Positions 650-51,850 of a DNA stretch of 64,000 nucleotides are shown in pieces; position 1 is the first letter of the stretch; each line of letters begins with the position of its first letter. The stretch lies in the NCBI GenBank assembly GCA_035771165.1, contig JAWNZC010000319.1, positions 1,004,501-1,068,500 on the forward strand, given 5' to 3'. Position numbers and translations under genes: made by a program. The notes below the pieces were generated by a model. The model did not search any database. It was not told the DNA's origin and saw only the letters and a program-made list of their open reading frames with translations. Origin of the DNA: Paragorgia papillata. Taxonomy: Eukaryota > Cnidaria > Anthozoa > Scleralcyonacea > Coralliidae.

Positions 650-3600
650 ATATATTTATAATAATAAGATAGAGGAAATATCACGTGACGCATTTCGAGA
701 ACTCAGAGCATTAGAAGAACTGTAAGTAACAATTACAAAACATTCTTTTATAATGTTTGTAGCAAGTATTCAAACATTTTTTATCTTCTCTTGTTTTAAG
801 GAAATTGCAGAACAACAGAATCCATAGCTTAGTCAAAGGAACGTTGTCTAATTTAAAATTCTTGGTTAGATTGTAAGTAATAGATACAGCATGAGCAGCC
901 GAGCTGTACCTGATTTACAAGGCGAGCTGCAAGCGTGCCGTAGTAAATCAGATACAGCTCGGCTGCGAATCTTTCTTAAAATACAAATGCATCTAAGTAA
1001 TCAAGTTCACCAACTATTTTGGGGATACGGTCTGTTTTAGCCGATAAAATTGAAGCTAAAGTTTATGTAAATCAGGACGATGCTGTATCCGATTTACAAC
1101 CACTGCTACGGTATTGATTTCTTTTATGTTTTCGTCATGAATTATTAATGAGTATTTTAAGTGAACTTGTCGCCGTTTAAGTAATAGATAAATCCCGAGA
1201 GCGAGGGATGCATGCTATATATTTTGAGGAGGTTTTCCAACAAAGTTTTGTCTATTTTTTCCACCTTGGACAAATATTTTCCTTGTTTTTTTCTTCATTT
1301 CGTATCTAATTATTATTCAAGGGCTTTATGCGATATAAAGACCTTGGAAGAACAAAGAACCCGACTCAATAATAAATTAATAATAATAATAACCAACCAA
1401 CCAACCAACCATCTTCATCATGATCACTTCATTGATCATTTATTAAACTTTAATATTTATATTTTGTAGACAACTCGATCATAATTTGTTGGTATGTGAA
1501 TGCAACATACTCTGGTTGTCTCGTTTTCTTCGTGAAGTCAGGACAAACAGTGAACAAGCTTTATGTTCTAGTCCTACCAATCTACGAGGAAAATCATTAA
1601 TTTCTTTAACTCTTGAAGATCTCAACTGCGTTCAACCTGAATTTATTAAAATCCCATTAGATATTGTCATTAGTTCCAGACCCCCTAGCCGAGCATACTT
1701 CTTCTGCCAAGCCAGTGGTCATCCCACCCCTACGATCACGTGGTTAAGGAATCGCGCACAGCTTCATCCAAATAAACATTACGTCATCTTAGAGGACGAT
1801 ACCTTGGAGATTCATAAACCTAGCAAAGATGACGTGGCTACATATCATTGTCTGGCGCGGAATTCTGCTGGTCAAAAAATAACGGGCGCACGTTTAATGT
1901 ACTACAAGGAAGAAGGTGAGGAAGACTGAGTACTAGAGTTGATAACACTCTCCTCCGCAGAGGCTTAGAGGGGGCTTAGGGAAGGGGGACCCCTGGGGAA
2001 CTTATTGGGCGTTAAGGCCTGGCCAAACGCTTTCAACATCGCATTCAATAATGTTGAAAGCACGAGTGGCCAAATGAATTCAACATCGTGTTCAACATTC
2101 ATGAATGACAATTAATTGAACGCGGGCTACCACAAAAGCTGGAATCGACAATATCCCGCATGGCGCATGTCTCTGTTCACAGTGCTGTGAGTAACTTCGT
2201 TACAAGTAACTAGTTACAGTAACTAGTTACATTTTTAAGTAACTGTAACTGAAACTAGTTACTTTTTCTGAAGAAGTAACTGTAACTATAACTAGTTACT
2301 TTTTGAAGAAGTAACTATAACTAGTTACTTTTTTAAAGAACTGTAACTAGTTACAATATTTGGTTCAAAAATGTGACTAGTATAGTTACTGATATTCAGT
2401 TGAGGATGTCATTACGTCTTGATTAAAATGGTTTTGATATAATAATAAAGGTACATTATGTACACATTTGACTATTTCTGCTTAGTGACAACTATATTTA
2501 GGCATTTAGCTGTAAAAACATAACTACGGTACTGGTATCTAAAAACTAGTAATTTCTTTGTTGATTCTAGTAACACAGACAATGGAATGTAACTTTGTAA
2601 CTAGTTACAAAATTTTTGAAGTAACTTTGTAACTGTAACTAGTTACTTTCTTTTCATTGTAACTTTCATCGGTAACTAGTTACTTTTCTAACGATGTAAC
2701 TGTAACTGTAACTAGTTACAAATATTATGTAACTTTTACAGCACTGTCTGTTCAACAAAGTTGAATGAAATGTGGCCAAATGCGTTCAACACCTTTCAAC
2801 ATTTTGAGAACAATAGAAATGTTGAACGCGTGTTGAACGAAAATTTGAACATGTTCAAATTTCGTTCAACATCATTTAACACCATTCAACAGCGTTCAAC
2901 ATCATTCAACAGGGGTGGCCAAACGCTTTCAACATGTTGAATTCAACAATGTTGAACGATGTTGAATGAAATGTTGAAAGCGTTTGGCCAGGCCTTTAAG
3001 TGAATTTACAAAGAGGCATTGATGTAGATCATATGTGTTGGGTTTTTTTATCCACAGTTGCTCCTAATTTCATTGATATCCCTGATGATACCCAGGTTGT
3101 CGAGGGTAATGCAGTTATGCTCAAGTGTTCTGCACAAGGCATACCTAACCCACAGATAATCTGGAGTAGGAATGGACATCGTCTTCTACCATCGGGGCGC
3201 ATTCGGATCTTGAGATCGGGAGATCTTCAAATCTCGGCAGCTCGTCGGCGTGATCACGGACAGTACACGTGTCGAGCTCAGAATAAAGTTGGCTACGCCA
3301 CAAGAAAAGCTACACTAGTTGTTAAAAGTAAGTTAAGGCTGCGTGCGTTCGGTGATCAAAGTTAGATTAACCATATTGTTAAGGAAGCCGCATCCACGCG
3401 CATTCTCGAGTCCCGTGTTTTTTTTTAGCTAGAAGGCTTTAGAAAGCGCGCGGTCAGAAAACGTGAGGCCCTATATGGAAAGCGCGCGGTCAAAAAACGT
3501 GATGCCCTATATGGAAAGCGCGTGATCAAAAAAACGCGAGGCCTTATATGGAAAGCGCGCGGCCCAGAAAACACGAGGTCCTATATGGAAAGCGCGCGGC

Positions 3601-5787
3601 CTCAGAAAGAGCGCGCCCCCGGAAAACGAGAGGTTTTGGCATAGAAAGCGTGAGGCTTCAGAAAATGTGCGGCCCTAGAAAGCGCTGACTTGTGGCCCGG
3701 AATGTGCGGGATTGAAAGTGACTTAATAGTAGTTATAATAGTGGCTTAGACAGACACATTTTTCTCTCACCATATCTAACATTAGATTTGATAGAGAACG
3801 TGTGTTTTACCATGTGTTTATCGTTGTTTCTTGTCATATTTCTTCTTCAGCTACTCCAGTGTTTAGTTTAAAGCCTGCGCCAATAACTGAAGTTTTAGAA
3901 GAAACTGAAGCCTCGCTTCTATGTCGTGCTGATGGTTACCCAACGCCTGCTATGACTTGGTTCAAAGATGGACAACGACTTCCTTCAGAAGACAGGCACG
4001 CTGTTTTGCCCAATGGAACCTTGAGGATTTCAATGGTGCGACCACGTGACGAGGGCGTGTATACATGCCAGGTTATTAACGTCATTGGAGTTCGCACAGC
4101 TCGAACTAGACTCGTTGTAAAAGGTAAGGTAAGGGGGGTATGGAGGTAAGGCGATATGCAATAATAATTAATGACGTCATAGTAGTGGCGTGATGACGTC
4201 ATAGTGACGTGTGACATCATTGTCGTGACGTAGGACGTCATGGTAACGTAGTAACGTCATGATCGTGACGTAATGACGTCATTGTGTTGACGTAGTGACG
4301 TTTAATTCTGACGTAGTGACGTCATCGTGATGACGCAGTGGCATCAATCATATATAGTGACATCATCATGGTGATATGGTGACGTCATCATTGTGACGTC
4401 ATTTGTATAGTGACATTATAGTGACAGTTTTCGACTTTGGTAACAATATAGCGTTTTGATATATTTAGCTAAGCCGCAGATTTTTTACATCTCTGAGAAT
4501 ATGGTTGTTAAAGTTGGAGATCCAGTCATGCTGAACTGTTCGGCTAAAGGCGATCCCAAACCACTGATCACGTGGATCAAGGATGGTATTCATGTAACCA
4601 ATGGCAACAGGTTTGTCGTCAGTCCATCCGGGGAACTTGTTATCCCGGATATTGGTAAAAATGATGAAGGAGAATACGACTGCGTTGCACGCAATGATAT
4701 TGGATCTGACACGAAGAGTGTGCGTGTTGCTGTGAGAGGTAAGTGCGTTGAATGAAACAGACCTTGTACCCATATTGTTTAGTTTAATAATACCTTATTT
4801 TATTATTATTTTTTCAACGCAGTTTTTACGAATGGTCCTGGAGACAAGTTTGTTAATTCGTCTATTTTGAGAGCAAAGGAAACAGTAAATCGCGCCATCA
4901 AAAATACCATTCAACGTCTCTTTGAAAGATCTCGACCCAGGTCTCCCAGCGACCTGCTCGCATTGTTCCGTTACCCAAGCAAGAAGGCGATCGAAATTGC
5001 TCGGGCAGCCGAGGTATAATATAATATTTACAACAACAATAATAGGAGCAGCAACAGCAGCGCCACCAACAACAATAACAACAACAACAACAACAATAGT
5101 AACAGCAACAACAACAACAACAGCAGTAACAACAACAACAGCAACAACAACAGCAGTAACAACAACAACAACAGCAGTAACAACAACAGCAAAACAGCAG
5201 CAGCAACAACAACAACAACAACAGCAAAATAACAGTGGCAGTAGCAACAACAACAACAACAACAGCAAAACAACAGCAGCAGTAGCAACAACAACCACAG
5301 CAGCAAAACAACAGTGGCAGTAGCAACAACAACAACAGCAAAACAACAACAGCAGTAGCAACAACAACACCAACGACAGCAACAACAATAACAACAACAC
5401 CCCTACTACTAACAACAACAACAACAGCAACGACAACAACAAAAACAGCAACGACAACAACAACAGCAACAACAACAACAACAACAACACCACCACCAAC
5501 AACAACACCAACAACAACAACAACAGTAGCCGTCGCCATCATTCTGATAACGTTAATCATTGTTTTGTTTTAGATCTTTGAGACAACGATTCAACTTATT
5601 CATGAGCATGTGGAGAAAAGCAAGATGTTGAACATCAGCGAGATTTCTTATAATTATTATGACCTGGTGTCCCCTAGTTACCTTGAAATGATTGCTGACC
5701 TTTCTGGATGCGCGCAACACAGAAGAATAGTGAACTGTTCAGCAAACCTGTGTTTTCACAAGAAATACCGCACCATTGATGGAACAT

Positions 5788-5837
<50 letters not shown>

Positions 5838-8800
5838 TATCATAATGTTCGCCATGATTATACACAACAGCAACAACAACAGCAGCAGCAACACAAACAG
5901 CAACAACAACGACACAACACCACAAACAACAACAACACACAACACCACAAACAACAACAACACACCACAAACAACAACACAACACCACAAACAACAAACA
6001 ACAACAGCAGCACAAACAACAACAACACAATACCACAAATATCAACACAAACAACAACAGCAACGCCAACATCAACACAAGCAACAGCAACAACGCCAAC
6101 ATCAACACAAACAACAACAACAGCAGCAGCAGCAACAACAACAACAACACAAACAACAACAACACAACACCACAACAACAGCAGCAACCACAACATCAAC
6201 ACAAACAACAGCAACGCCAACATCAACACAAACAACAGCAACAACGCCAACATCAGCACAAACAACAACAGCAACAACGCCAACATCAACACAAACAACA
6301 ACAACAGCAGCAACAACAACAACAACGCATTATTTTCCGTAACGACCGCACTTTGAGTTAAGCCTTTATTGGCCAGGTTTCTGGCAGCTCTCCCCTTGAC
6401 GAGTAAAATCGTCTGGCGTTAACCAGAGTAAAATTAATAAGTTGTCAAAAGGCAACTGTGGCCAGTAATTTAATTTCAAGGGTTAATAAGAAGTTAAAAT
6501 TTTTATTTCAGGTAATAATCTTGGCAAGCCGATGTGGGGTGCCTCGTTGACGGCATTTCGTCGACTGCTGAAACCTGTTTACGAGAATGGTTTTAATACC
6601 CCTATGGGATGGCAAAACAACGACACTCTCCCCAGTGCTCGTCTGGTTTCAACCGAGCTGATCTCGACTGCTAATAATAGCCCGGATGAGTTATTCACTC
6701 ATATGTTGATGCAATGGGGACAGTTTGTGGATCACGATCTTGATTTTACCGTCAACAGTCCTAGCAGTCAGCGGTTTACTGATGGAGTAGATTGTAATAT
6801 TACATGTGAAAATCAATCTCCTTGCTACCCAATCACTATCCCCCCTGGAGATAAACGCATCAAGCGTCTTAAGTGTATGCCGTTTACACGATCAAGCACG
6901 GCTTGTGGAACTGGTACGACATCCGTGTTCTTTAGCGTGGTGTCCACGCGTGAACAAATGAATCAGATTACATCATACATGGATGCATCGAACGTTTACG
7001 GTTCATCTGCGGAGGATGCCGAGGATCTACGAAATAGGTCTGGTAACCGAGGGTTACTGAGAACAGAAAAATGGAATGGGACAGCTTTACTACCATTTAA
7101 TAACGATACTCCTATAGACTGCCTCAAACCAGATAAAGAATGGCCTATCCCATGCTTCCTTGCGGGAGATCACCGCGCCAACGAGCAACTTGGTCTGCTG
7201 TCTATGCACACTATATGGATGCGCGAGCATAATAGAATTGCTAACCAATTACATGACTTGAATCCCACGTGGGACGGAGATAAGATTTATCAAGAAACAA
7301 GAAAGATTGTGGGCGCAGAAATGCAACATATAACTTACAAACATTATCTTCCAAAGATTCTTGGCAAAGACGGAATGGAAATTATGGGAGATTACCAAGG
7401 TTATAATCCAAATACGGACGCAACGATTTTCAATAGTTTCGCTACAGCAGCTTATAGATTTGGACATAGCTTGATCAATCCAGAATTGCGTCGACTTAAT
7501 GATTCATTTCAAACTATACCAGAAGGACATATTGCGCTACATAAAGCGTTTTTTGCGCCGTACAGAATCGTCAAAGAAGGCGGAATTGATCCAATTTTAA
7601 GAGGGTTATTTGCGACAGCTGCAAAAGATCGACGCGTTAAAGGTGGAGTCCTCAATACGGAACTCACCGAAAGATTATTTGAAATGGCGCACGCGGTTGC
7701 TTTGGATCTCGGTGCGTTGAACATCCAACGCTCACGTGATCACGGGTTGCCTGGATACAATGAATGGCGCGTGCTGTGTAATCTTTCAGCAATGAAGAAT
7801 TTTGATGATTTGCAAAGTGTGATTTCAAATGGAAATATTATCGAGAAGTTGAAAACACTTTATGATGATGTCAATAAAATTGATTTGTGGGTTGCTGGGA
7901 TTTTGGAAGATATCGTTCCCGGCAGTCTTTTAGGCCCAACGTTCCAATGTCTTATTGCAATGCAGTTTAAGAACTTACGTGACGGAGACAGGTAATAATG
8001 ATTTTTCCCACTTTAACCATACCGTGCGAAACGTCCTTCTCGCTCTTCTCATTCTCGCTCTTCTCATTCTAATTCTCGTTCTTCCCATTCTAATTCTCAT
8101 TCTCATTCTCGCTCTTCTCATTCGCGCTCTTCTCATTCTCGTTCTTCTCATTCTAATTCTCGTTCTTCTCATTCTCGTTCTTCTCATTCTCGCTCTTCTC
8201 ATTCTCGTTCTTCTCATTCTCGTTCTTCTCATTCTCGCTCTTCTCATTCTCGCTCTTCTCATTCTAATTCTCGTTCTTCTCATTCTAATTCTCGTTCTTC
8301 TCATTCTCGTTCTTCTCATTCTCGTTCTTCTCATTCTCGTTCTTCTCATTCTCGTTCTTCTAATTCTCGTTCTTCTCATTCTCGCTCTTCTCATTCTCGT
8401 TCTTCTCATTCTAATTATCGTTCTTCTCATTCGAATTCTCGTTCTTCCCATTCTAATTCTCGTTCTTCTCATTCTCGCTCTTCTCATTCTCGTTCTTCTC
8501 ATTCTAATTCTCGTTCTTCTCATTCTAATTCTCGTTCTTCTCATTCTAATTCTCGTTCTTCTCATTCTAATTCTCGTTCTTCTCATTCTAATTCTCGTTC
8601 TTCTCATTCTAATTCTCGTTCTCATTCTCATTCTTGTCCTTGTCATTCTTGTTCTTCTCATTCTTGTTTATTTTGTTCTTCTTGTTCTCGCTCCTCATAC
8701 TCTCACTTACACTCATATTTCTAGTTTTATTATTATATGAACGTAAAATTGAATAAATTCTTTCTTTTTCTCCTCATTCTTATTTTTCTTCCTGTTTGTC

Positions 8801-12101: not shown

Positions 12102-15100
12102 ATGTTTTTTAAACTTCTTCATTGCTTCATGGTATCTTTAGTGGCTGTCACTTTTACAAGTAAGTGGTTATTATTTCTTCCCATTTTCTGTATAATATTG
12201 TGGTCGGGCCTTGTGGTCTCACTCGCTGATTATTTTGTATTTTCTATCCACAGATGGTCTTCAGTGTCGACTCACAACAAATGTGGGCAATGTTTCCGAT
12301 TCTGTGGCAGATCTTGGGAAAAGATTGATCTTAAACTGTTCAAATATTGATAGAGATGACAGTGTTGTTGTTAAATGGAGGAAAGATGGGGACTTGATCA
12401 AGAACAAGTCATCTATCTTATTTATATACAATTTAACAAGAGAAGATGCTGGAAAATATGACTGTATTTTGACCAAAGAACGTCAGAAAAGTAAATGTAT
12501 GGTGTTTGTAAAGATCAATGGTATGAAACTTCAGTTTCATATGGGCTAATATTGTTTAATAATTATTATATAATAATTATTTTGAAAACATGTTTGATGA
12601 TTGGCTGAAAGCCATATTTCTATAACTCTACAAAACCTTATAATTTATACACAGTTCAATTGTGGCATATTGCTATATTGAATAGTGCAATAATGGTATA
12701 TAACTATATTGTAGAGATACATGGCACTACAGTATATAAGTATTTATTGATTGATTGATTGACTAGTAAAATATTCTGTATATAATAAAGCATTCTATTT
12801 TTTTTCAGCTCCTCCCATTATTGTGACTGTTAAGAGTTGTTGTGTATCAAATAATGGTAAGGAAATGAGACTGACTTGCCTTGTGAATGGCTTTCCAAAG
12901 CCCAATATTAAATGGCATAGCAAATTGTAGAACATCTGGTCAATGTAATATCCAGGACTTACGATTATCAGAAGTGAATGGTCAAAATTATTGGTGGATG
13001 GCTAATGTGACTGAATACCTTAAGCCTAACATAACTGAGAATAATAATACTTGTAGAACAAAGGATCATTGTTTTATCAAACCACCACTAGTGAATGGTC
13101 AAAATTATTGGTTGTCAGCTACGACAGTGACGTATATACAAAATGGAGCAAGCTTTACATGCAAGGCAGAAAATATATTTGGAAAAACCAATGCTTCGAC
13201 TGCTGTCGAAGTTTCTTGTCTAAATGGTATGGAGTTTTTGTTTGATATTGTGTATATATAGTTTTTAAAATTATTTTATAATACCCCCCTAAAGGAAGGC
13301 AATTGGTATAGTACCCCCCTGGCACTGGCAGTGGCGTAACGCTCATTAGGTAGAGTTAGGCCCTGAGGGGCCCCCAGCCCACCACAGCCCCACCCCATGT
13401 CAGTCAAATCAACTCAAATCAACTCAAATTTAACAACTAAACATTGTTTATCATGCTAAGATGGATTACATAAACAAGAACTTCATTCCTACCAAAGTTG
13501 ATTGTTTTAAAACCATATCTTTCAATAATTCTGTAAGAAACAATATTTACTGCACGCAAGGATTGTGGTTAAATGTACAAATTGCCATCTTTTACTGTAT
13601 GATCAATTATTATAAGTAATAATTTCATGAAAAGTCATGTTATTAGTTTGTAATATTTTGATCGCCGAGGAAAACTTTGAGAATCTTACCAACAGGAAAT
13701 TTACACGGTTGATCAGAGAAGTTGCATCTAATTTTCCCGTGCATGTTGATGAGGGAAAATATATGCAAGCAGGAAATTTAGAAGAAGACAAAAGATTTCT
13801 TTGTCTTCTAATTTTCCCTTATCAACATGCACGGGAAAATTAGAAGACAAAGGATAAATTTCCCTCTTGCATGAGCAATGAGGGAAATACGAGGTTTACA
13901 TTCCCTCGGAGAACAAAAGAATCCGAGGAGATCATGGTATTATTAAATTAATAAATTAATAGTGGTTGATAGTGCCTTATTCTGTTCTTATTGCTTTTTT
14001 TTTTTTAGAATTTCTAATAAATTTTACCAAACTCTTTATATTTCAAAATGTTTGAATTAAATTTTTATTATAGATAACTTTTGTGGAAATACATACCACC
14101 TTTAATATTTATTTGCTAAGCTTTCTGCCTGTTGACTCAGGCCTTCATCAGAGCAGTAACAACATTTTTATTGTTTTTGTTTGTTTTAGAATTTAAAGAG
14201 AAACATACTGTTTGTCCTAAGTTTGAAAATCTTGAAGAGAAGGATAATATTACTATAGACATTGGAGAGTCAATTACGATGCAATGTCGTGTGAAATTTC
14301 CCAGAGAAAATAAACGTTGTTACAAACATGAATTTCATCGAAGGCCTCGTGGTTATAATGAAAGTCATATGTCTGTGTGGAATATTTTATTTTTATCTGC
14401 AACTTATGCAAGACTTGTTATGAATTATACCATTGTTAATGCATCAAGAAATGACACTGGAAAATACACTTGCTTTCATCACTTTAAAATATCTAAAATA
14501 AGTCCACATTGTAAACCATTATCAAAGACATATCATCTGCTTGTAAGAGGTAATTGTTGTTACTACTACTATTATTATTATTATTATCATCATCATTATT
14601 ATTATTATTATTATCATCATTATTATTATCATCATTATCATTATTATCATCATCATCCTTATTATTATTATTATAATTATTATTATCATCATCATTATTA
14701 TTATCATCATCATCATCATTATTATCATTATTATCATCATCATCATCGTTATTATTATTATTATTATTATTATCATCATTGTCATCATCATCATCATTAT
14801 TATCATCATTATTATCATCATTATTATCATTATTATCATCATTGTCATCATCATTATTATCATCATCATCGTTGTCATCATCATTATTATTATTATTGTG
14901 TTTATCATCATTATTATTATTATCATATCATATTATTATCATCATCATTATTATCATCATCATCATTATTATCATCATCATCATCATATTATTATCATCA
15001 TCATCATTATTATCATCATCATCATCATCATCATTAGACATTATTATCATCATCATCATTATTATTATTATTATCATCATTATTATCATCATCATTATTA

Positions 15101-16970
15101 TCATCATCATCGTTATTATTATTATTATTATTATTATCATTGTCATCATCATCATTATTATCATCATTGTCATCATCATTATTATCATCATCATTGTCAT
15201 CATCATTATTATCATCATTGTCATCATCATTATTATCATCATTGTCATCATCATTATCATCATTGTCATCATCATTATTATCATCATTGTCATCATCATT
15301 ATCATCATTGTCATCATCATTATTATTATCATCATTGTCATCATCATTATCATCATTGTCATCATCATTATTATTATCATCATCATTGTCATCATCATCA
15401 TTATTATTATTATTGTGTTTATCATCATCATTATTATTATTATTATTGTGTTTATCATCATTATTATTATTATTATTATTAATTGTGTTTATCGAGGGTT
15501 TTTAGGGGCTGGGTCATATGGAGAGTTTTCAGCTTATAGCCTAGAATATTCTTTGCTGTCATCATTGTTACTGGTGGGTTTATTCTAATTTTTCACTAAT
15601 TATTAATTAGAACCATCAGTGATTTCTTCCAGAAGAAATAAGAATGTTTTAGCAGCTGTTGCAGTGAGTGTAACTGTACTAGTTATTATTGGCTTTGCTT
15701 TAATTTTGGTAATATGGTTTCTACGCAGAGGAAGATTAAAATCACAACAATTTTATGGTAAGACAATTTATTCTCCTTGCATGAATTTTCAATTGTAAAA
15801 ATTCTTTTATTAGCTTATTTATAACACACTAAATTACATGTCAAAGTTTCCAGTGTAACAATTTAACCCTTTAAATCCCACTATGTTAGAAGGTCTTCCC
15901 TTGATGAGTAAAATTGTCTGGTATTAGACACATGAGGTTAGACAGAGTAAAAAATAAAAAGTGCCAAATAGCCAGTGCTGTAAAAGTTACATAATTTTTG
16001 TAACTAGTTTCAGTTACAGTTACATCATTAGAAAAGTAACTACTTACCGATAAAAGTTACAATGAAAAGAAAGTAACTAGTTACAGTTACAAAGTAACTC
16101 CAAATATTTTGTAACTATGGTTACAAAGTTACATTTGTCCATATGTTACTAGAATCAACAAAGAAATTACTGGTTTTTAGATGCCAGGACCATAATTATG
16201 TTTTTACAGCTAAATATAGTTGTCAGTAAGCAGAAATAGTCTAATTGTATATAATGTATCTTGATGGGAATTAATGAAGGGGTTAAACTATTTTTTAAAC
16301 CCAAAATATTTTTAGTAAATAATTGTGCTGATTCAGCCTGAGAATTTAAAATATATGTTTTAGTTTGTTTCTACACTGTGGTAATTATATATATATATAT
16401 TTGTCTAATTTGAAACATTTAGATAGTCTTCCAGAATTACGTTGGGATGTGTTTGTCTCCTACAGTAGCAAAGATTTTACATGGGTACAAGAACTCTGTG
16501 AAACACTCGAACAACCTCCTTTTAATCTTATTGTGTGCTTGCATCAACGAGATTGGGAACTTGGTCGTACTGTCATTGACAATATGGCTGATTCTGTCTA
16601 CTGTAGTCAGAAAACATTATTAATTGTGTCGAAAAACTACTTGGAAAGCAGTTACTGTATGCAAGAGCTTCAGATTGCAATGAATAGTGAGATTGGGACA
16701 AAAAAGATTAACAAAGATAGAATTGTTTTAATCAAGATTGATGATGTTTCATTAAAGAAACTGCCAAAGAGCCTGAGACAAAAATCCTATCTTGATTTTT
16801 CCAATACTGAACAGCGCAAACATTTCAAGACTAAGTTAATGAAGGCATTGCCAAGACGCGAGGCTAACCATGACGATGATGATGATGATGATGACTGTCT
16901 TCATAATTCCAATGATGGTGATGTTCAGTTGGATAAAATGACTATCCTTGAAACAAGTCTTATAACTTAA
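12102..16970 (+). CDS. Ig-Ig-Ig-TM-TIR receptor A (IL-1R-like), disrupted in Ig2
   Basis: Type I membrane receptor with a cytoplasmic TIR domain; TIR receptors signal through MyD88-type adaptors to NF-kB in animals (family knowledge). Exons: 12102-12159 (signal peptide), 12254-12520 (Ig1), 12809-13226 (Ig2), 14190-14549 (Ig3), 15611-15757 (TM), 16423-16970 (TIR, stop 16968-16970). All introns are phase 1. TIR motifs: WDVFVSYS (box 1), QRDWELGRTV (box 2/BB loop). After the TIR comes an eight-Asp run. The Ig2 exon is 418 bp, not a multiple of three: its first frame holds the Ig Cys and Trp (LTC, IKW) but hits TAG at 12928-12930, while the later frame (YTC-like FTCKAEN) runs to the donor. Ig2 also contains an internal duplication (CRT...VNGQNYW twice). 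Either a frameshifted allele or pseudogene, or a one-base sequence error. Confidence 0.85.
13330..13600. repeat. Decayed dispersed repeat in receptor A intron
   Basis: Contains AACATTGTTTATCATGCTAA and GTGGTTAAATGTAC segments that recur in inverse orientation at 60,735-60,829, so both are copies of one dispersed element. A hAT-like GGCAGTGGCGTAACGC sequence lies at about 13,327. Confidence 0.55.
13612..13945 (+). repeat. Dispersed foldback repeat with a 68-codon ORF, copy 1
   Basis: Near-identical to 52376-52745. Starts AAAAGTCATGTTATTAGTTTGTAAT and ends around GAGATCATGGTATTA. It contains an inverted pair built on CTAATTTTCCCGTGCATG and its complement. Both copies keep the same 68-codon frame (here 13637-13843) with only a few residue differences. 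No recognised protein; it may be chance or a remnant. Confidence 0.7.
14103..14155 (-). ncRNA. Hammerhead-like core (degenerate)
   Basis: On the minus strand the segment reads CTGATGA, then a 5-bp stem GCCTG/CAGGC, then GAAA, which is the conserved core of a hammerhead ribozyme. Helix III and helix I are not convincingly paired here, so it is probably a relic within a receptor A intron rather than an active ribozyme. Confidence 0.5.
14560..15490. repeat. ATT/ATC trinucleotide microsatellite
   Basis: Over 900 bp of (ATT)n/(ATC)n with GTC interruptions and TGTGTTTATC islands, filling most of the intron between the Ig3 and TM exons of receptor A. Poly-Y/H, poly-I and poly-S frames are artefacts. 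Confidence 0.97.
15973..16262 (-). mobile_element. hAT-type MITE copy (truncated, reverse)
   Basis: Begins CAGTGCTGTAAAAGTTAC, the reverse-orientation end of the GTAACTAGTTAC family. It keeps the inner core as far as an ATAATGTATCTTGATGG segment, then loses the other half. It is inserted in a TTAA-type short repeat that starts at about 15864. Confidence 0.75.
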
Positions 16971-17004
16971 TTCTTTCATTACTGAATTGGCCCTTCAGTA
17001 TTGG

Positions 17005-17273
17005 TCACTGATCTCTACAGCTAAATCAATTAAGGTTGTCCTGGCCAAAGCCAAAAGGTCAAAGCCAAGCGTGAAAATGCTCGTTAATAATCCCCAGAGA
17101 GGCAAGTTTGGTTTATTTGTATGATTTTGGCCTATAAATATAGTAAATGTGTGCTTCGCTATTTAAATAATAATTCACATCGTACTTTTCGCACTTGGCT
17201 TTGACCTTTTGGCTTTGGCCAGGACAACCTTAATTGATTTAGCTGTATATAACAGTTGTATATAGAGATCAGT
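17005..17273. mobile_element. Long inverted repeat just 3' of receptor A
   Basis: Left arm about 17006-17072, right arm about 17195-17272: TCACTGATCTCT through GGTTGTCCTGGCCAAAGCC against its reverse complement. It is a palindromic MITE about 35 bp downstream of the receptor A stop and would form a hairpin in the 3' UTR if transcribed. Confidence 0.75.
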
Positions 17274-17574
17274 GGTGAAGGAATACCAGTGATAGGACTG
17301 GCTCATTCCTATAGCCAGTTTTTTCTTCTTCCAGAGGTGAATAAAATTGTCAGACATTTGCCAGAATAAAATACTAATTAGCACCTATGCCACCAGGAGA
17401 GAAGACTCTGATTTTTATTTTTACTACAAATTATATCATTTTATATTACTGTTTGCGTTGTTATACTGGTGCTGTATTTTAAGATAGTTGTAATTGTTAA
17501 TGTAATTACTGTAAGAGTTGTACTATATAGTTGTAAATATATTATATTGTATGGATAAATTACCTCTAATATGC

Positions 17575-18995
17575 CCCCTCCAAAATGTCTCCTTTCTCTA
17601 ATTAACCCCTCTCTTTAATTAACCCCTCTCTCTAATTATCCTCCATCTCTAATTATCCTCCTCTAATTATCCTCCCTCTCTCTAATTATCCTCCCTTTCT
17701 CTAATTATCCTCCCTCTCTCTAATTATCCTTCCTTTCTCTAATTATCCTCCCTCTCTCTAATTATCCTCCCTCTCTATAATAATCCTCCCTCTCTAATTA
17801 TCCTCCTCTAATTATCCTCTCTCTCTAATTATCCTCCCTCTCTCTAGTTATCCTCCCTCTCTAATTATCCTCCCTCTCTCTCTAATTATCCTCCCTCTCT
17901 CTAGTTATCTTCCCCCTCTAATTATCCTCCCTCTCTCTCTAATTATCCTCCCTCTCTCTAGTTATCTTCCCCATCTAATTATCCTCCCTCTCTCTCTAAT
18001 TATCCTCCCTCTCTCTAGTTATCCTCCCTTTCTCTAATTATCCTCCCTCTCTCTAATTATCCTCCCTTCCTCTAATTATCCTTCCTCTCTCTAATTATCC
18101 TCCCTCTCTAATTATCCTCCTCTAATTATCCTCCCTCCCTCTAATTATCCTCTCTCTCTAATTATCCTCCCTCTCTCTAATTATCCTCCCTCTCTCTCTC
18201 TAATTATCCTCCCTCTCTCTAATTATCCTCCCTCTCTCTAATGATCCTCCCTCTCTCTAATTATCCTCCCTCCCTCTAATTATCCTCTCTCTCTAATTAT
18301 CCTCCCTCTAATTATCCTCCCTCTCTCTCTAATTATCCTCCCTCTCTCTCTAATTATCCTCCCTCTCTAATTATCCTCCCTCTCTCTAAATAACCCCCTC
18401 TCTAGTTAACCCTCTCTCTCTAATTAACCCCCTCTAATTAACCTTCCTAAACCCCTCTCTCTCTAATTATCCTCCCTCTCTAATTAACCCCCTCTAATTA
18501 AGCCCCCTAATTAACCTTCCTAAACCCCTCTCTCTCTAATTATCCTCCCTCTCTAACCCCTTCTCTCTAATTATCCTCCCTAAACCCTCTTTCTAATTAG
18601 TCTCCCTCTCTCTAATTATGCTTCATTTCCCTAATTAGCCTCCCTCTCTCTAATTACGCTCCCTCTCTCTAATCAGTCCCCCTCTCTAATTAGCCTCTCT
18701 AATTAATTACCTCTCTAATTAGCCTTCCTCCCTCTAATTAGCCTCCTCTCTAATTAGCTTCCCGCTCTCTAATTAGCTTCCCTCTCATTTATCCTCCCTC
18801 TCTCTAATTTGCCTTCCTCCCTCTAATTAGCCTCCCTCTCTCTAATTAACCTCCCTCTCTCTCATTAGCCTCCATCTATAAATAACCCCCTCTCTCTAAT
18901 AAGGCCCCCTCTCTCTAATCCCTCCCTCGTCCTAATTAGCCCCTTCTCTCTAATAAGCTCTCCTTTCTCTAGCCCCCTTTCCTCTTCAAAAAGCC
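17575..18995. repeat. CTCTCTAATTATCCTCC minisatellite
   Basis: About 1.4 kb of 16-20-bp units of the form CCCTCTCTCTAATTATCCT with decayed AATTAACC and AATTAGCC variants at the right end. It separates receptor A from receptor B. There are no unique spacers, so it is not a CRISPR array. Confidence 0.95.
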
Positions 18996-19129
18996 CTCCC
19001 CCCGAGGATCTTGTGGAGGAAATACGGTAATTCCTGTTTGTATGTATATTCCTCCCTTCCTGAATAAATTAATTTATTAAAGTAATTACGTGATGTTGTC
19101 ATTCCAAACCGGATATGATATTGAAATAA

Positions 19130-19335
19130 AATTAGCGTGCTGCGTAGGCAGTGTAGAAACAACAATCGAAATATAGTAAGGTTAGATATACTGCCGAAAC
19201 AGAGAACGTAGGAATCTAACGTTTCGAGCGAAGGCCCTTCGTCATCCTCTGACGAAGGGCCTTCGCTCGAAACGTTAGATTCCTACGTTCTCTGTTTCGG
19301 CAGTATATCTAACCTTACTATATTTCGATTGTCGG
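19130..19335. mobile_element. Palindromic element with hammerhead-like core (family B), full copy
   Basis: Near-perfect ~85-bp arms meet at about 19,247. The arm carries CAATCGAAATATAGTAAGG, ACTGCCGAAACAGAGAACG and GACGAAGGGCCTTCGCTCG followed by AAACG. Entry GTGCTGCGTAGGCAGTGT is shared with other copies near 23403, 24930, 51107 and 61610. Confidence 0.85.
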
Positions 19336-19515
19336 ATATCGATATTGTTGCTGTTATCTTACAGACCGGAACTACGTAAATCAGCGAAATCGCCGAAATA
19401 TAAAACCCAGTCTCGAAGAATCTTTTCCTTTCACAGAATGAATAGTTTGTCACATTCTAGGACTTCCGAGATATTCTACTGTCTTACGTTTAACGACAGT
19501 ATCGATTGATGAATA

Positions 19516-22500
19516 ATGGTGTTCAGATTTCTTCATTGCTTGGTTTTAAGTGTCTTCATGTTGTCCATATCAGCCAGTGGTAAGTTCAGCTTGAATTTAA
19601 GTCGTGTTTCTTGAATATTTTCTAACATTTATTCCATTCTTTTCTATCCACAGATGGTCTTCAGTGTCGACTCACAACAAATGTGGGCAATGTTTCTGAT
19701 TCTGTGGCAGATCTTGGGAAAAGATTGATCTTAAATTGTTCAAATATTGATAAAAATGACAGTGTTGTTGTTGAATGGAAGAAACATGGGGACTTGATCA
19801 AGAACAAGTCTTCTTCCATCTTATTTATAAACAATTTAACAAGACAGGATGCTGGAAAATATCAATGTATTTTGACCAAAGAACATCAAAAAAGTGAATG
19901 TGAAGTGTTTGTAAAAATCAATGGTAATGCACCTATCCACACTGGGCACAAAAGTTCTTCATTTCCCCTCCCTCCCCAGGGGAAGCCTGCAAACAAATAG
20001 CCCCACCCCCCAGGGCAAGAATATATATTACTACAATAAAGTACTAGTTTAAATGTAACTTTATTAGAATATCATTGAAGTGCCTATATGACCTTTAAAT
20101 TGCAAATACAATGTTAGAAATATAGATTCTACGTGTATATAAACAGTGATATGAAGTACGTTGTCAAAATACTCTATGTTAATGTTAATAGGGGTTTTAT
20201 TTTCACATAGTAGAACATTATTTTATAGAATTGCGCTGTATTTTTTCTGCTTTTCATTTAATGAACTGCATCAAAATTTAAAAGAAAAAGACCAGCAAAA
20301 TTGAGATTTATCTAGAATCTATAACTGTACTATTGTACTTGCAAAGATTACACGCAGTTTAGCATTGAAACATTCAATTAAGATTTAAACCTCTTCTGAA
20401 ACACCGAAAATTTCTGAAGACAGTTAATTTTACAAAAGACTACAAGCTGAGAGAATGATCCTTGAACAATTGCGCATAGCTGAGCCCACGAAATTTGTTT
20501 GTAAAACATGAGAGAATAATGAAAATCACGAGGCTGCAAGCCAAATGTTTTTGTTGTTCTCGAGTGTTTGTAACCCCTGGTAAAACACGTTTCACAAGTT
20601 TATGAAATAGCTTCTCAATCGCCAATTATAGTAGAGGGACTTGGTGATATTGGTGCATATTAGATTAGACAATGGTTTCACATTGAATTTATAATTAAGA
20701 AATTAATGGTAATAAACAGTCCTTTGTGCTGTTTATATTATCTGATTTCTTAATTAGAAATTCAGTTAGCGCGACCTTTACCAGGTTTCAAAAGTCGTCC
20801 ACATGACCAAATATTTTTCTTTGATTGGCTAATTAGCTCATGAATTATTAATGAGTTTGAGAAATAATATATAATGAATTAATGAATGAGTGACCCACAA
20901 AATAATTATTTTTTGTAGTTCGTTTACATGTGACAATTGGCCTTTATTATGAATCTGAGAGAAAAATGGAGCTACCCTGCTTTGTGAATGGATATCCTAA
21001 ACCCAATGCTGTTGTTTGGTATAAAAATGGTAGAAAAATTTCTATCAACAAAGGCCAGAGTGGACATAACTATTTTGTGGAGAATACTGATATTAACGAA
21101 TGCTCATACCAATCAATCCTTGAAATACTTTATCCTGATATATCAATATCAAATACCATTGGAAACTATACGTGTGAAGCCAACAATAGATTTGGGACAG
21201 TGAGGTTTTCTTCCTATGTATCAAAGAAAATGATTGAAGGTATTCAGTGATATTATCTGTAAATAAGCAGGCCCCCCAAAGGCAAGTTGCCCTGGGCCAC
21301 CAACTTGATTATTAAAGGGTCCCCTAAAATTTTTGAGATTTCAGTTTTTGACATAAGAAAACATGAGGCCTAGAAAGCGTATCGATCAGCAGTGCTGTGA
21401 GTAACTTCCTTACAAGTAACTAGTTACATTTTTAAGTAACTGTAACTGATCAGACTTAAGTTACTTTTTCTGAAGAAGTAACTATAACTAGTTACTTTTT
21501 GAAGAAGTAATTACAGTATAAGTACCGGTAGTTACTTTTTTAAAGAACTGTAACTTAAGTTACAATATTTGGTTCAAAAATGTGACTCGATAGTTACTGA
21601 GTTTTAGTTGAGGATATAATAATAAAGGTACATTATGTACACATTTGACTATTTCTGCTTAGTGACAACTATATTTAGGCATTTAGCTGTAAAACATAAT
21701 TATGGTACTGGCATCTAAAAACCAGTAATTTATTTGTTGATTCTAGTAACATGGACAAAGGAATGTAACTTTGTAACTTAGCTACAAAATTTTTGTAACT
21801 TTGTAACTACGGTAGTTACTTTCTTTTCATTGTAACTTTTATCTGTAACTAGTTACTTTTCTAACGATGTAACTGTAACTAGTTACAAAAATTATGTAAC
21901 TTTTACAGCACTGACGATCAGTAACACTAACTTCATTTTTAGCCAACCCAGGGCCTATGACGTATGACATCATCAGGGGCCTGAAATCAACCCATGTGAT
22001 GTCATCAGGGACCCCAAATTGATAATTTGCCCCCAACCCCACAATTTCTCTTGGTGGCCTTGTAAATAAGTACAGTATCACAGAATCTAGGAAAAAGTGT
22101 GTTGGTCTGCAAATTCAGTCAAAACAACTTTCTTTTTATTTATTTTTAGGTTTTTATGGAAAATGTCCCATATTTAAAGATCCTTCACAGGAAAAGAATA
22201 TTACTGTTTATCTTGGGAAATCAAAAACATTATTATGTCATGTGATTTTTCATGATATTAATTTGCTTGCTGCGTATGATATCACCAACCGTACTAGCAA
22301 TGATCAAAACCATATATATACCAGCTATATAATTGACTCAGATAATATGAGAGTTATGAATTATACAATTGTTAATGCCACGAAGAGTGACACTGGAGTA
22401 TACCGTTGTCTATTTAACGGTCCTAAGCAGAGGTGTGGTGTAATATTGAAAACATTTTACATTACAGGTAGGATTTCTTTTTGTATTTCTGGCTTTTTGT

Positions 22501-24068
22501 GGTTGCAGTTTGCCATTGTTTTCATTTCATCACATTTAAGTTTTAACTCTGATTTCTTTTCATAGTAATTGAGCCTGAGGCAAAGAAGGAAAATGAAGCA
22601 AAGGAGAAAAAAAATAGTGCCATTGTTATTGCAGTGAGTATAACTGGAGCTCTGCTTGGCCTTGGGTTGGCTTTAGTTATATGGTATTTACGTGGAAAAA
22701 GATTAAAATCTCTTCGCTTTTATGGTAAGTCAAAATGATTCAATGTTTCGATCCTGTGATGTCTTTAAATATCAGGGGTGATTGTTGTGAAGAGATCATC
22801 TCTATGAAAACAACTGATAATAATATAGGCGTCTACAGTGGTGTGAGTAACTTCGTTACAGTAACTAGTTACAGTAACTAGTTACATTTTTAAGTAACTA
22901 ACTGAAACTAGTTACTTTTTCTGAAGAAGTAACTGTAACTATGACTAGTTACTTTTTGAAGAAGTAACTAGAACTTAAGTTACTTTTTTAAAGAACTGTA
23001 ACTACATGTAGTTACAATGTTTGGTTCAAAAATGTGACTAGTATAGTTACTGATATTCAGTTGAGGATGTCACTCTTTCTTGATAAAAATAGTTTTGATA
23101 TAATAATAAAGGTACATTTTGTACACATTTGACTATTTCTGCTATAGTGACAACTATATTTAGGCATTTAGCTGTAAAACATAATTATGGTACTGGCATC
23201 TAAAAACCAGTAATTTCTTTGTCGATTCTAGTAACACGGACAAAGGAATGTAACTTTGTAACTAGTTACAATATTTTTGAAGTAACTTTGTAACTGTAAC
23301 TAGTTACTTTCTTTTCATTGTAACTTTTATCGGTAACTAGTTACTTTTCTAACGATGTAACTGTAACTAGTTACAAAAATTATGTAACTTTTACAGCACT
23401 GCTCCTATGTTCTCTGTTTTGGCAGTATATCAAACCTTGCTATATTTCGATTGTTGTTTCAATACTGCCTACGCAGCACACTACTTTTATTTCACTGATA
23501 ATAATATAATTATGTATCTGCTTTTTATTTTCAATGTGTAGATAGCGTTCCAGAATTGCGTTGGGATGTGTTTGTTTCATACAGTAGTGAAGATTTCTTG
23601 TTTGTAAAGGAACTGTGTAAAACACTCGAACAACCTCCTTTTAATCTTATTATATGCTTGCATCAACGAGATTGGGAACTGGGTCGTACTGTCATTGACA
23701 ATATGGTTGACTCTGTCTACTGCAGTCAGAAAACATTAATAATATTATCAAAAAGCTACTTGGAAAGTCGCTATTGTATGCAGGAGCTGCAGATTGCAAT
23801 GCACAGTGAGATTGGTCCAGATAATTTACTGAGAGAAAAGATTGTATTGGTGAAGATTGATGATGTTTCACTGCAGAAATTACCAAGAGCTTTGAGACAG
23901 AAGTCATATCTTGATTATTCAAACCAAGAGCAAGTCAAGCATTTTAAGACAAAACTTTTAAGAGCATTGCCAAGAAGAGAGTTGACGTACGAGACAACTG
24001 AAGACTTGGTTGTTGATAGCTGTAACAATGATACTGATCTAAGATTGCAGGAAATTCCTCTCACTTAA
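19516..24068 (+). CDS. Ig-Ig-Ig-TM-TIR receptor B (IL-1R-like), intact
   Basis: Intact 552-residue paralogue of receptor A. Exons: 19516-19579 (signal peptide), 19654-19923 (Ig1), 20919-21239 (Ig2), 22150-22467 (Ig3), 22566-22724 (TM), 23542-24068 (TIR). All internal introns are phase 1 and the joined length is 553 codons including stop. A hydrophobic helix at about residues 342-364 is followed by basic residues (RGKRLK). The TIR shows WDVFVSYS and QRDWELGRTV. Ig1 and TIR are close to receptor A, whereas Ig2 and Ig3 share little beyond core Ig residues. Architecture (3 Ig, one TM, TIR) is that of IL-1 receptors and of Ig-TIR proteins reported in cnidarians and sponges. Ligand unknown. The first codon starts a clear signal peptide (MVFRFLHCLVLSVFMLS). 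Confidence 0.9.
21390..21913 (+). mobile_element. hAT-type MITE copy 2
   Basis: CAGTGCTGTGAGTAAC to TTTTACAGCACTG, in the receptor B Ig2-Ig3 intron. Flanks TCGATCAG and ACGATCAG match at 7 of 8 positions, consistent with an aged 8-bp target duplication. Confidence 0.85.
22836..23401 (+). mobile_element. hAT-type MITE copy 3
   Basis: Same family in the TM-TIR intron of receptor B. Flanking 8-mers do not match convincingly. The right side abuts half of a family-B palindromic repeat (23403-23495), suggesting nested insertion followed by loss of the left half. Confidence 0.8.
23403..23495. mobile_element. Half copy of family-B palindromic repeat
   Basis: Matches the right arm of the 19,130-19,335 element (GTTCTCTGTTTTGGCAGTAT ... 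CTGCCTACGCAGCACACTA), immediately after the hAT-type MITE and 46 bp before the receptor B TIR exon. Confidence 0.7.
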
Positions 24069-24094: not shown

Positions 24095-24414
24095 TCATCC
24101 TCAGGGACTTAGACGTCTGTTGTTAAAGCAGATATTTATACTAATTGGAACATTCTGAGAAGATTTGTAATATATCTTCTCAGGCGGAAATTTCATCTTC
24201 ATGGACTTTTTTGCCGTTAAAGTTGACGGAAGTGACGCCAAAAGAGGAATCTGTAAAGTGGTTTTCATATAGACAAACTCCTCTTTCGACGTCACTTCCG
24301 TCAACTTTAACGGGAAAAAAATCCATGAAGATGAAATTTCCGCCTGAGAAGATATATTACAAATCTTCTCAGAATGTTCTAATTAGTATAAATATGTAAA
24401 CTCCCTGAGGATGA
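24095..24414. mobile_element. Long palindromic MITE immediately 3' of receptor B
   Basis: Arms of about 140 bp, nearly perfect: TCATCCTCAGGGA at the left edge matches TCCCTGAGGATGA at the right, and CTTCTCAGGCGGAAATTTC recurs inverted. It starts 27 bp after the TIR stop codon, so the receptor B 3' UTR probably contains it as a long hairpin. A 19-bp direct repeat (GACGTCTGTTGTTAAAG) straddles its left edge. Confidence 0.88.
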
Positions 24415-38813: not shown

Positions 38814-44244
<5,431 letters not shown>

Positions 44245-51106: not shown

Positions 51107-51850
51107 ATCAAAATATAGTAAGGTTTGTGTATACTGCCGAAAATATTGAACGTAGTTCCTAACGTTTCGAGTGAAGGCCTTTCGTCAGAGGAAAACGGGT
51201 TTTTTTCTGACGAAGGGCCTTCGCTCGAAACGTTAGAAACTACCAGTGCTGTAAAAGTTGCATAATTTTTGTAACTAGTTACAGTTATAGTTACATCGTT
51301 AGAAAAGTAACTAGTTACCGATAAAAGTTACAATGAAAATAAAGTAACTAGTTACAGTTACAAAGTTACTTCAAAAATTTTGTAACTATAGTTACATTCC
51401 ATTGTCCGTGTTACTAGAATCAACAAAGAAATTACTGGGTTTTAGATACCAGTACCATAATTATGTTTTTACAGCTAAATGCCTAAATATAGTTGTCACT
51501 AAGCAGAAATAGTCAAATGTGTACATAATGTACCTTTATTATTATATCAAAACCATTTTTATCAAGAAAGAATGACATCCTCAACTGAAAATCAGTAACT
51601 ATAGTCACATTTTTAAACCAAATATTGTAACTAGTTACAGTTCTTTAAAAAAGTAACTAGTTATAGTTACTTCTTCAAAAAGTAACTAGTTATAGTTACA
51701 GTTACTTCTTCAGAAAAAGTAACTAGTTTCAGTTCCAGTTACTTAAAAATGTAACTAGTTACTTGTAACGAAGTTACTCACAGCACTGGAAACTACGTTC
51801 AATATTTTCGGTAGTATTCAAACCTCACTATAGATTTAGTGACTGTGAGA
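51107..51850. mobile_element. Family-B palindromic repeat split by a hAT MITE
   Basis: ATACTGCCGAAAATATTGAACGT on the left, its inverse at 51,797-51,820, and hammerhead-like CTGACGAAGGGCC/GCTCGAAACG in the centre (51,206-51,235). The right arm is interrupted at 51,244 by hAT MITE copy 5. Confidence 0.8.
51244..51788 (-). mobile_element. hAT-type MITE copy 5 (reverse), exact target duplication
   Basis: CAGTGCTGTAAAAGTTGC to GAAGTTACTCACAGCACTG, flanked by GAAACTAC at 51236-51243 and 51789-51796. Reverse orientation relative to copies 1-4. Confidence 0.92.

Follow-up and report, generated by a model that had tools for sequence, protein, structure and literature searches.

In a window of 64,000 nucleotides from the octocoral Paragorgia papillata (contig JAWNZC010000319.1 of assembly GCA_035771165.1, positions 1,004,501 to 1,068,500 of the forward strand; all positions below count from the first letter of this whole stretch), two receptor genes of the Ig-TIR type lie in tandem, gene 1 at 12102–16970 and gene 2 at 19516–24068, each counted from its ATG through the end of its stop codon. 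Each has six exons, encoding in order a signal-like peptide, three immunoglobulin domains (Ig1, Ig2 and Ig3), a transmembrane segment (TM) and a TIR domain, and comparison of the two genes supports homogenization of a single exon, Ig1, after they had diverged; this follows from the low synonymous divergence of Ig1 together with a block of alike DNA whose limits lie at the exon borders. Our preferred reading, to which we give a probability of about 0.6, is that of an old tandem octocoral Ig-TIR pair in which Ig1 has been overwritten by ectopic gene conversion and the TIR has been kept alike by purifying selection.

Divergence between the two genes exon by exon

Divergence was estimated for each exon by the Nei-Gojobori method (NG86), with the TIR core taken as 146 codons and the signal exon as 19 codons; Ig2 was left out of the synonymous comparison because the Ig2 exon of gene 1 is frameshifted. 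For Ig1, which offers 53.5 synonymous sites, the proportion of synonymous differences (pS) was 0.143 (95% interval 0.055–0.248), the synonymous distance (dS) 0.159, the nonsynonymous distance (dN) 0.066 and dN/dS 0.42. The corresponding values were 0.563, 1.04, 0.131 and 0.13 for the TIR core, and 0.608, 1.25, 0.634 and 0.51 for Ig3, where synonymous sites are near saturation; the TM exon gave a pS of 0.520, a dS of 0.885 and a dN of 0.469, and the short signal exon (pS 0.486, dS 0.78) is compatible with the high divergence of these three. A gap in pS as large as that between Ig1 and the TIR core was reached in none of 10000 permutations. Where the two proteins have the same residue, the codons were identical in 71 of 77 cases in Ig1, 88 of 124 in the TIR, 25 of 35 in Ig3 and 13 of 21 in TM (Ig1 against TIR, p=0.0003; Ig3 against TIR, p=1.0). 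Judged from dS and from these codon identities, the TIR, Ig3 and TM look to be of one age and Ig1 looks much younger, with about a sixth of their synonymous divergence. Synonymous divergence was therefore not uniform across exons, the comparison that the first-pass annotation of this stretch had set as the test of its reading, and it is Ig1 that stands out.

That annotation had estimated Ig1 by eye as about 85 percent identical and the TIR as highly similar, both of which proved right: Ig1 agrees at 77 of 88 residues and, counted over the alike block, at 264 of 284 bases, with a single gap of 3 nt besides, and the TIR agrees at 124 of 172 residues, its DNA being 79% identical. Its description of Ig2 and Ig3 as differing almost completely was correct as to distance but concealed a relationship, as Ig3 retains 35 of 105 identical residues (tblastn E=1.6e-10) and Ig2 27 of 102, with the two parts of the gene 1 exon each read in its own frame, alongside a short tblastn match (E=7.6e-4). 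The annotation had further proposed that Ig1 and the TIR are constrained or homogenized; homogenization stood for Ig1 and constraint for the TIR. The likeness of the TIR is the product of purifying selection, as seen in the low dN/dS of its core, and not of copying. Homogenization of the TIR was rejected, its synonymous divergence equalling that of Ig3 by the codon counts given above.

Limits of the Ig1 block and its probable mechanism

The alike block comprises 12240–12523 in gene 1 and 19640–19926 in gene 2, running from 14 nt before the exon through 3 nt after it, and outside it identity drops to 28 of 100 bases downstream and 20 of 60 upstream. All intron bases inside the block are identical (14/14 before Ig1 and 3/3 after it); the last 14 intron bases agree at 9 positions before Ig2, 10 before Ig3, 6 before TM and 9 before the TIR. 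Over the last 44 intron bases, compared without gaps, 25 were identical before Ig1, 24 before the TIR and 14 to 20 before TM, Ig2 and Ig3. Two signs by which gene conversion is recognized were found here, namely a tract, Ig1, whose synonymous divergence is below that found elsewhere in the pair, and sharp borders to that tract, which coincide with splice sites. Gene conversion stopping where the introns no longer match is the most likely mechanism: between paralogues with unalike introns, conversion tracts would end at splice sites and leave a block of this shape, and a moved segment would be expected to bring its intron flanks with it. Ig1 would then have been overwritten between the two genes at least once after the duplication.

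Within Ig1, its first third gives a hint of a further conversion tract of younger date. The first 96 nt of the exon hold one difference against 19 in the rest (shuffle p 0.027), and at sites where two of the three sequences agree among gene 1, gene 2 and P0001 (the closest protein to gene 2, described below), 3 of 3 in codons 1–32 favour gene 1 with gene 2 over P0001, against 2 of 13 later (p 0.018, or 0.057 with a two-residue gap counted as one event; one further site differs in all three). On the other side, the longest identical run in Ig1, of 57 nt, is not unusual (p 0.19), and the younger tract is only a hint because the changes may have occurred on the P0001 side.

Gene models and the Ig2 exon of gene 1

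The span 12102..24068 and the identical six-exon, phase-1 architecture given by the first-pass annotation were confirmed by the positions of the ATG and stop codons, by ag/gt at all internal borders with all introns in phase 1, and by a Pfam scan of the open reading frames (ORFs) around the exons, which returned Ig families in five of the six Ig exons and TIR or TIR_2 in both last exons (Table 1). Gene 2 reads as one open frame of 552 aa and is, as far as sequence can tell, an intact receptor. P0001 spans signal, Ig1, Ig2, Ig3 and TM without introns and matches by eye the exon joins predicted for gene 2, which supports the exon model. A single membrane segment between the Ig part and the TIR is indicated by the hydrophobic exon 5 (by eye) and by helix 327–364 in the structure model of P0001.

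Table 1. Exons and homogenized blocks of the two Ig-TIR genes in the window
Feature	Position	Strand	Basis
Gene 1 exon 1, start codon and signal-like peptide	12102..12159	+	signal peptide judged by eye
Gene 1 homogenized block (14 nt acceptor tract, Ig1 exon, 3 nt intron)	12240..12523	+	blastn, identity counts
Gene 1 exon 2, Ig1	12254..12520	+	Pfam Ig_2 1.3e-9
Gene 1 exon 3, Ig2, frameshifted, degenerate internal duplication	12809..13226	+	418 nt, in-frame TAG
Gene 1 exon 4, Ig3	14190..14549	+	Pfam ig 1e-5
Gene 1 exon 5, transmembrane segment	15611..15757	+	TM judged by eye
Gene 1 exon 6, TIR and stop	16423..16970	+	Pfam TIR_2 5.7e-21
Gene 2 exon 1, start codon and signal-like peptide	19516..19579	+	signal peptide judged by eye
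Gene 2 homogenized block, partner of 12240–12523	19640..19926	+	blastn, identity counts
Gene 2 exon 2, Ig1	19654..19923	+	Pfam Ig_2 1.4e-9
Gene 2 exon 3, Ig2	20919..21239	+	Pfam Ig_3 8.4e-9
Gene 2 exon 4, Ig3	22150..22467	+	Pfam ig 7e-5
Gene 2 exon 5, transmembrane segment	22566..22724	+	helix 327–364 in model of relative P0001
Gene 2 exon 6, TIR and stop	23542..24068	+	Pfam TIR_2 1.5e-18

With 418 nt, a length not divisible by three, the Ig2 exon of gene 1 breaks the frame, which then meets a TAG at residue 149; Pfam returned no family for the ORF over this exon, which covers only its second part in frame. Direct repeats occur twice in the exon, as a pair of 32 nt (88%, spacing 117 nt) and a pair of 28 nt (75%, spacing 126 nt); they read as an old, degenerate internal duplication, and the duplication adds cysteines. 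Both the frameshift and the duplication had escaped the first-pass annotation. As assembled, gene 1 cannot yield a three-Ig product without splicing that takes out the broken part of Ig2. Skipping of Ig2 keeps the frame because all exons are phase 1, and gene 1 without exon 3 has an open frame of 459 residues.

Several repeats accompany the pair. A long CT-rich minisatellite of TCTCTAATTATCCTCC-type units (by eye) lies between the two genes at 17600–18990, a TTA/TCA trinucleotide repeat of roughly 0.9 kb (by eye) occupies 14555–15490 in intron 4 of gene 1, and directly 3' of gene 2 a stretch of 264 nt (24132–24395) matches its own reverse complement at 89% and is a candidate hairpin-like mobile element. 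The other blastn matches between introns of the two genes are copies of a repeat family (15973–16265, 21390–21913 and 22836–23403), of which further copies lie at 2179–2746, 39570–40114 and 51241–51789; the copies are roughly 300 to 570 nt long and rich in GTAACTAGTTAC (by eye).

Relatives and the age of the duplication

The closest proteins to gene 2 were P0001 (84% identical over 68%; its source label 'lgn' we take to mean the Logan assemblies), two models from Dendronephthya gigantea and one from Paramuricea clavata, both species being octocorals. Scoring in the first two protein searches was confined to the 7998 and 7995 candidates that had the most words in common with the query, and further relatives may exist. 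A first TIR tree had 12 rows (10 of 29 search matches plus genes 1 and 2), and a second had 10, with P0009 and P0015 left out. The latter places gene 2 together with Dendronephthya P0002 (X1) and Paramuricea P0003 (support 94/95), gene 1 adjoins that group in the best tree (97/99), and an arrangement with genes 1 and 2 as sisters was rejected (approximately unbiased test, p-AU 0.019). A clade of gene 1 with Dendronephthya X2 (P0004) and P0010 was absent from the best tree but was not rejected by the same test (p-AU 0.065). On the strength of the TIR tree, the duplication seems to be older than the split of these octocorals.

The Ig1 of gene 2 is identical to that of gene 1 at 77 of 88 residues, to that of P0001 at 81 of 87 and to that of Paramuricea at 29 of 89. 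As it is nearer to P0001 than to gene 1, the copying of Ig1 seems to be mostly older than the split from the species that carries P0001. Over the other exons, gene 2 and P0001 are identical at 85 of 103 residues in Ig2, 88 of 104 in Ig3 and 42 of 46 in TM. The two Dendronephthya models, X1 and X2 of LOC114528769 (P0002 and P0004), resemble the Paragorgia pair in having two differing TIRs (88/143 identical) under one locus name, and by this token are probably also a neighbouring pair. The TIR of X2 is identical to that of gene 1 at 111 of 143 residues and to that of gene 2 at 99 of 143. Read by eye, these gene models differ from the Paragorgia genes at Ig1: the signal peptide of X2 runs into Ig2 without an Ig1, and X1 begins inside Ig1. 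The partial Paramuricea model P0003 passes from Ig1 directly into Ig3 (by eye).

Gene conversion weighed against other explanations

A number of points weigh against gene conversion acting on Ig1 in an old pair of immune-type receptors. Ig1 has few synonymous sites; the TIR, whose DNA is so alike, would seem a good substrate for conversion, yet its synonymous sites carry no signal of it; and the TIR match continues into the intron for 44 nt, with 31 of 44 aligned bases identical, a weak intron likeness beyond Ig1. Noel et al. (PMC10236652) consider conversion a great rarity among the tandem genes of stony corals, describing these families as evolving by birth and death with hardly any of it. 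With one genome and one haplotype, an assembly error in gene 1 is possible. The groups tested on the TIR were chosen after the first TIR tree, which weakens the p-AU of 0.019; Dendronephthya X2 and P0010 fall outside the group of genes 1 and 2 in the best TIR tree, so that orthologues of gene 1 are not established; and a TIR-like grouping imposed on the Ig1 tree was not rejected at the 0.05 level (p-AU 0.076; 7 rows with long branches, P0002 and P0004, which have no full Ig1, and P0013 and P0015 being left out). Finally, a study of Exaiptasia under Vibrio (PMC7654579) found no homologues of Toll-like receptors (TLRs) or of the interleukin-1 receptor (IL-1R) in the response, so that such genes cannot be taken for granted as immune genes.

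Among the other explanations, the one that survives best, though we still consider it improbable, is that gene 1 is a recent pseudogene and the mosaic partly the remains of a dying copy that served as a conversion partner. The frameshifted Ig2 exon with its TAG would fit, as would a search with the gene 1 ectodomain (4736 candidates scored) that returned P0001 and four fish MCAM entries and no gene 1 orthologue. However, the other five exons of gene 1 are open with intact splice borders and its TIR branch is short (0.051 against 0.14 for gene 2), so that any loss of the gene would be recent; the indel may be an error of the assembly; and the frame also stays open with exon 3 skipped, or with a 64-nt GTAAGG...AG stretch (12857–12920) removed as an intron, which would take out the Ig B-C core.

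A slightly weaker candidate is diversifying selection on Ig2 and Ig3 for recognition, as the first-pass annotation had suggested. Ig3 has a dN of 0.63 against 0.13 for the TIR core, and in the comparison of gene 2 with P0001 both domains have changed more than Ig1; however, the average dN/dS of Ig3 is only 0.51 and its synonymous sites are close to saturated, relaxed constraint explains the pattern equally well, and Ig2 could not be measured between the two genes, so that diversifying selection is not demonstrated.

We think it unlikely that the lineage of gene 1 originally had no Ig1 and gained the exon in a single copying from gene 2. Such an event would explain the low dS of Ig1 without repeated conversion, an added exon would keep the frame with all introns in phase 1, and Dendronephthya X2, whose TIR is nearer to gene 1 than to gene 2, has no Ig1. 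Against this, a copied segment should have brought intron flanks that would still be alignable at a dS of 0.16, and identity extends no more than 14 nt upstream and 3 nt downstream of the exon; moreover, X2 is one gene model in which the missing Ig1 may be a gap in prediction, and the best TIR tree does not make it the sister of gene 1. Selection alone, with Ig1 as the most constrained domain and nothing copied, is very improbable: Ig1 is also slow between gene 2 and P0001, but protein constraint does not cut the synonymous divergence of one exon sixfold relative to its neighbours in the same genes, dN/dS is lower in the TIR core than in Ig1 (0.13 against 0.42) although the dS of that core is 1.04, the Ig1 of Paramuricea is 33% identical, which shows that the domain is not strongly constrained over longer times, and a uniform age of the exons was rejected by the per-exon synonymous divergence and the codon identity at agreeing residues.

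Receptor class

Vertebrate IL-1 receptors consist of a signal peptide, three Ig domains, a membrane segment and a TIR. The Paragorgia genes have the same order of parts; they appear to differ in the TIR, whose best matches of solved structure are TLR2, TLR1, TLR6 and others. In a search of PDB sequences TLR2 came first (3.8e-16), followed by other TLRs and then by MyD88, with IL-1RAcP last of 24 matches (9.2e-4), so that the label IL-1R-like used in the first-pass annotation suits the architecture, the TIR being a better match to TLRs. The ectodomain ORFs gave Ig families, and among the Pfam families listed for them was no leucine-rich repeat, the repeat by which a TLR is told. For the ectodomain, whose structure prediction had been recommended, the model of P0001 is of middling confidence (pLDDT 70.8, pTM 0.42) and yielded three Ig domains and little beyond: Foldseek matched it to many Ig chains, with IL1RAPL1 at rank 21 and IL-18R alpha at rank 28, not above other Ig chains, and a PDB sequence search with P0001 gave titin, DSCAM, contactins and other Ig proteins among the best 60 of 110 matches.

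The definition of an Ig-TIR protein in PMC5094078, a TIR and at least one Ig domain in one protein, describes the gene 2 product, whose 552-aa frame holds both Pfam Ig and TIR/TIR_2 matches. The architecture is the known cnidarian "IL-1R-like" type, and a tandem pair of such genes is ordinary. IL-1R-like Ig-TIR proteins were reported from Nematostella in 2007 (NvIL-1R1 to 3; PMC1896004), 3 to 7 Ig-TIR copies each, complete and partial, from sea anemones in 2016 (PMC5094078), and a TIR survey placed cnidarian TIRs in the Toll/TLR group and called their likeness to IL-1R convergent (PMC7075850). The Paragorgia genes share with these receptors two or three Ig domains with a TIR at the C-terminus (the anemone genes also encode a membrane segment), a copy number above one in the genome and a TIR that seems unlike that of vertebrate IL-1R, and differ in being an octocoral tandem pair with one exon homogenized and gene 1 frameshifted in Ig2. 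Another point of comparison is the Hydractinia allorecognition complex (alr1, alr2), in whose hypervariable V-set-like domains some residues are under positive selection, whereas here the exchanged domain is the most alike; the described alr genes are not known to carry a TIR.

Surroundings of the pair

The first-pass annotation had considered the pair possibly part of a larger receptor cluster, for which the window gave no support: tblastn with nine exon queries over the window found both genes and Ig stretches of a peroxidasin-like gene, the other matches having E-values of 0.13 or worse, and no further Ig-TIR gene. The peroxidasin-like gene (1447–7992) has an LRRCT, at least two I-set Ig exons and an animal haem peroxidase (three ORFs scanned), and a tandem repeat array of about 1.8 kb lies at 56046–57868. 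In stony corals, according to PMC10236652, TIR genes have been amplified in tandem and Porites lobata has many IL-1R-like proteins; this was the only paper found in open-licence literature on gene conversion in cnidarian IL-1R-like genes or on tandem octocoral IL-1R genes.

Proposed working of the receptors and wider meaning

The order of parts and the kind of TIR point to surface receptors that would signal through a TIR adaptor, a step for which the model is known TLR biology. Most likely the two form a cell-surface receptor pair with a common outer Ig1 module, which would meet the same partner or ligand surface, and different Ig2 and Ig3; such a combination hints that the outer partner is one and the same for both and that their other contacts differ. 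The TIR would stay alike by purifying selection since both receptors must engage the same adaptor, presumably MyD88, and Ig3 and, by its look, Ig2 would change faster in protein. Because the exons are symmetric and in phase 1, skipping, gain or replacement of any one domain leaves the frame intact.

Read on into intron 5 (22725–22740), gene 2 continues with GKSK and then TGA, and P0001, a transcript-like contig, ends in FYGKSK, the same letters, which is how a TIR-less form that keeps this intron would end. We consider it a long shot that recurrent exon-limited conversion keeps Ig1 common, so that the two receptors would read one partner, while gene 2, by retaining intron 5, would make a TIR-less decoy. 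IL-1R1 and IL-1R2 are such an arrangement of activator and decoy, and if the idea were true, a like arrangement would have evolved separately in octocorals.

The homogenization of a single exon is real at synonymous sites; the mechanism and function proposed for it would be those set out above. It is of interest since, among the tandem genes of stony corals, conversion has been reported as a great rarity. In this one pair three forces are separated, namely copying in Ig1, selection in the TIR and divergence in Ig3 and, by its look, in Ig2, and such an exon-limited exception in an immune-type receptor is directly testable in any octocoral genome that has both genes.

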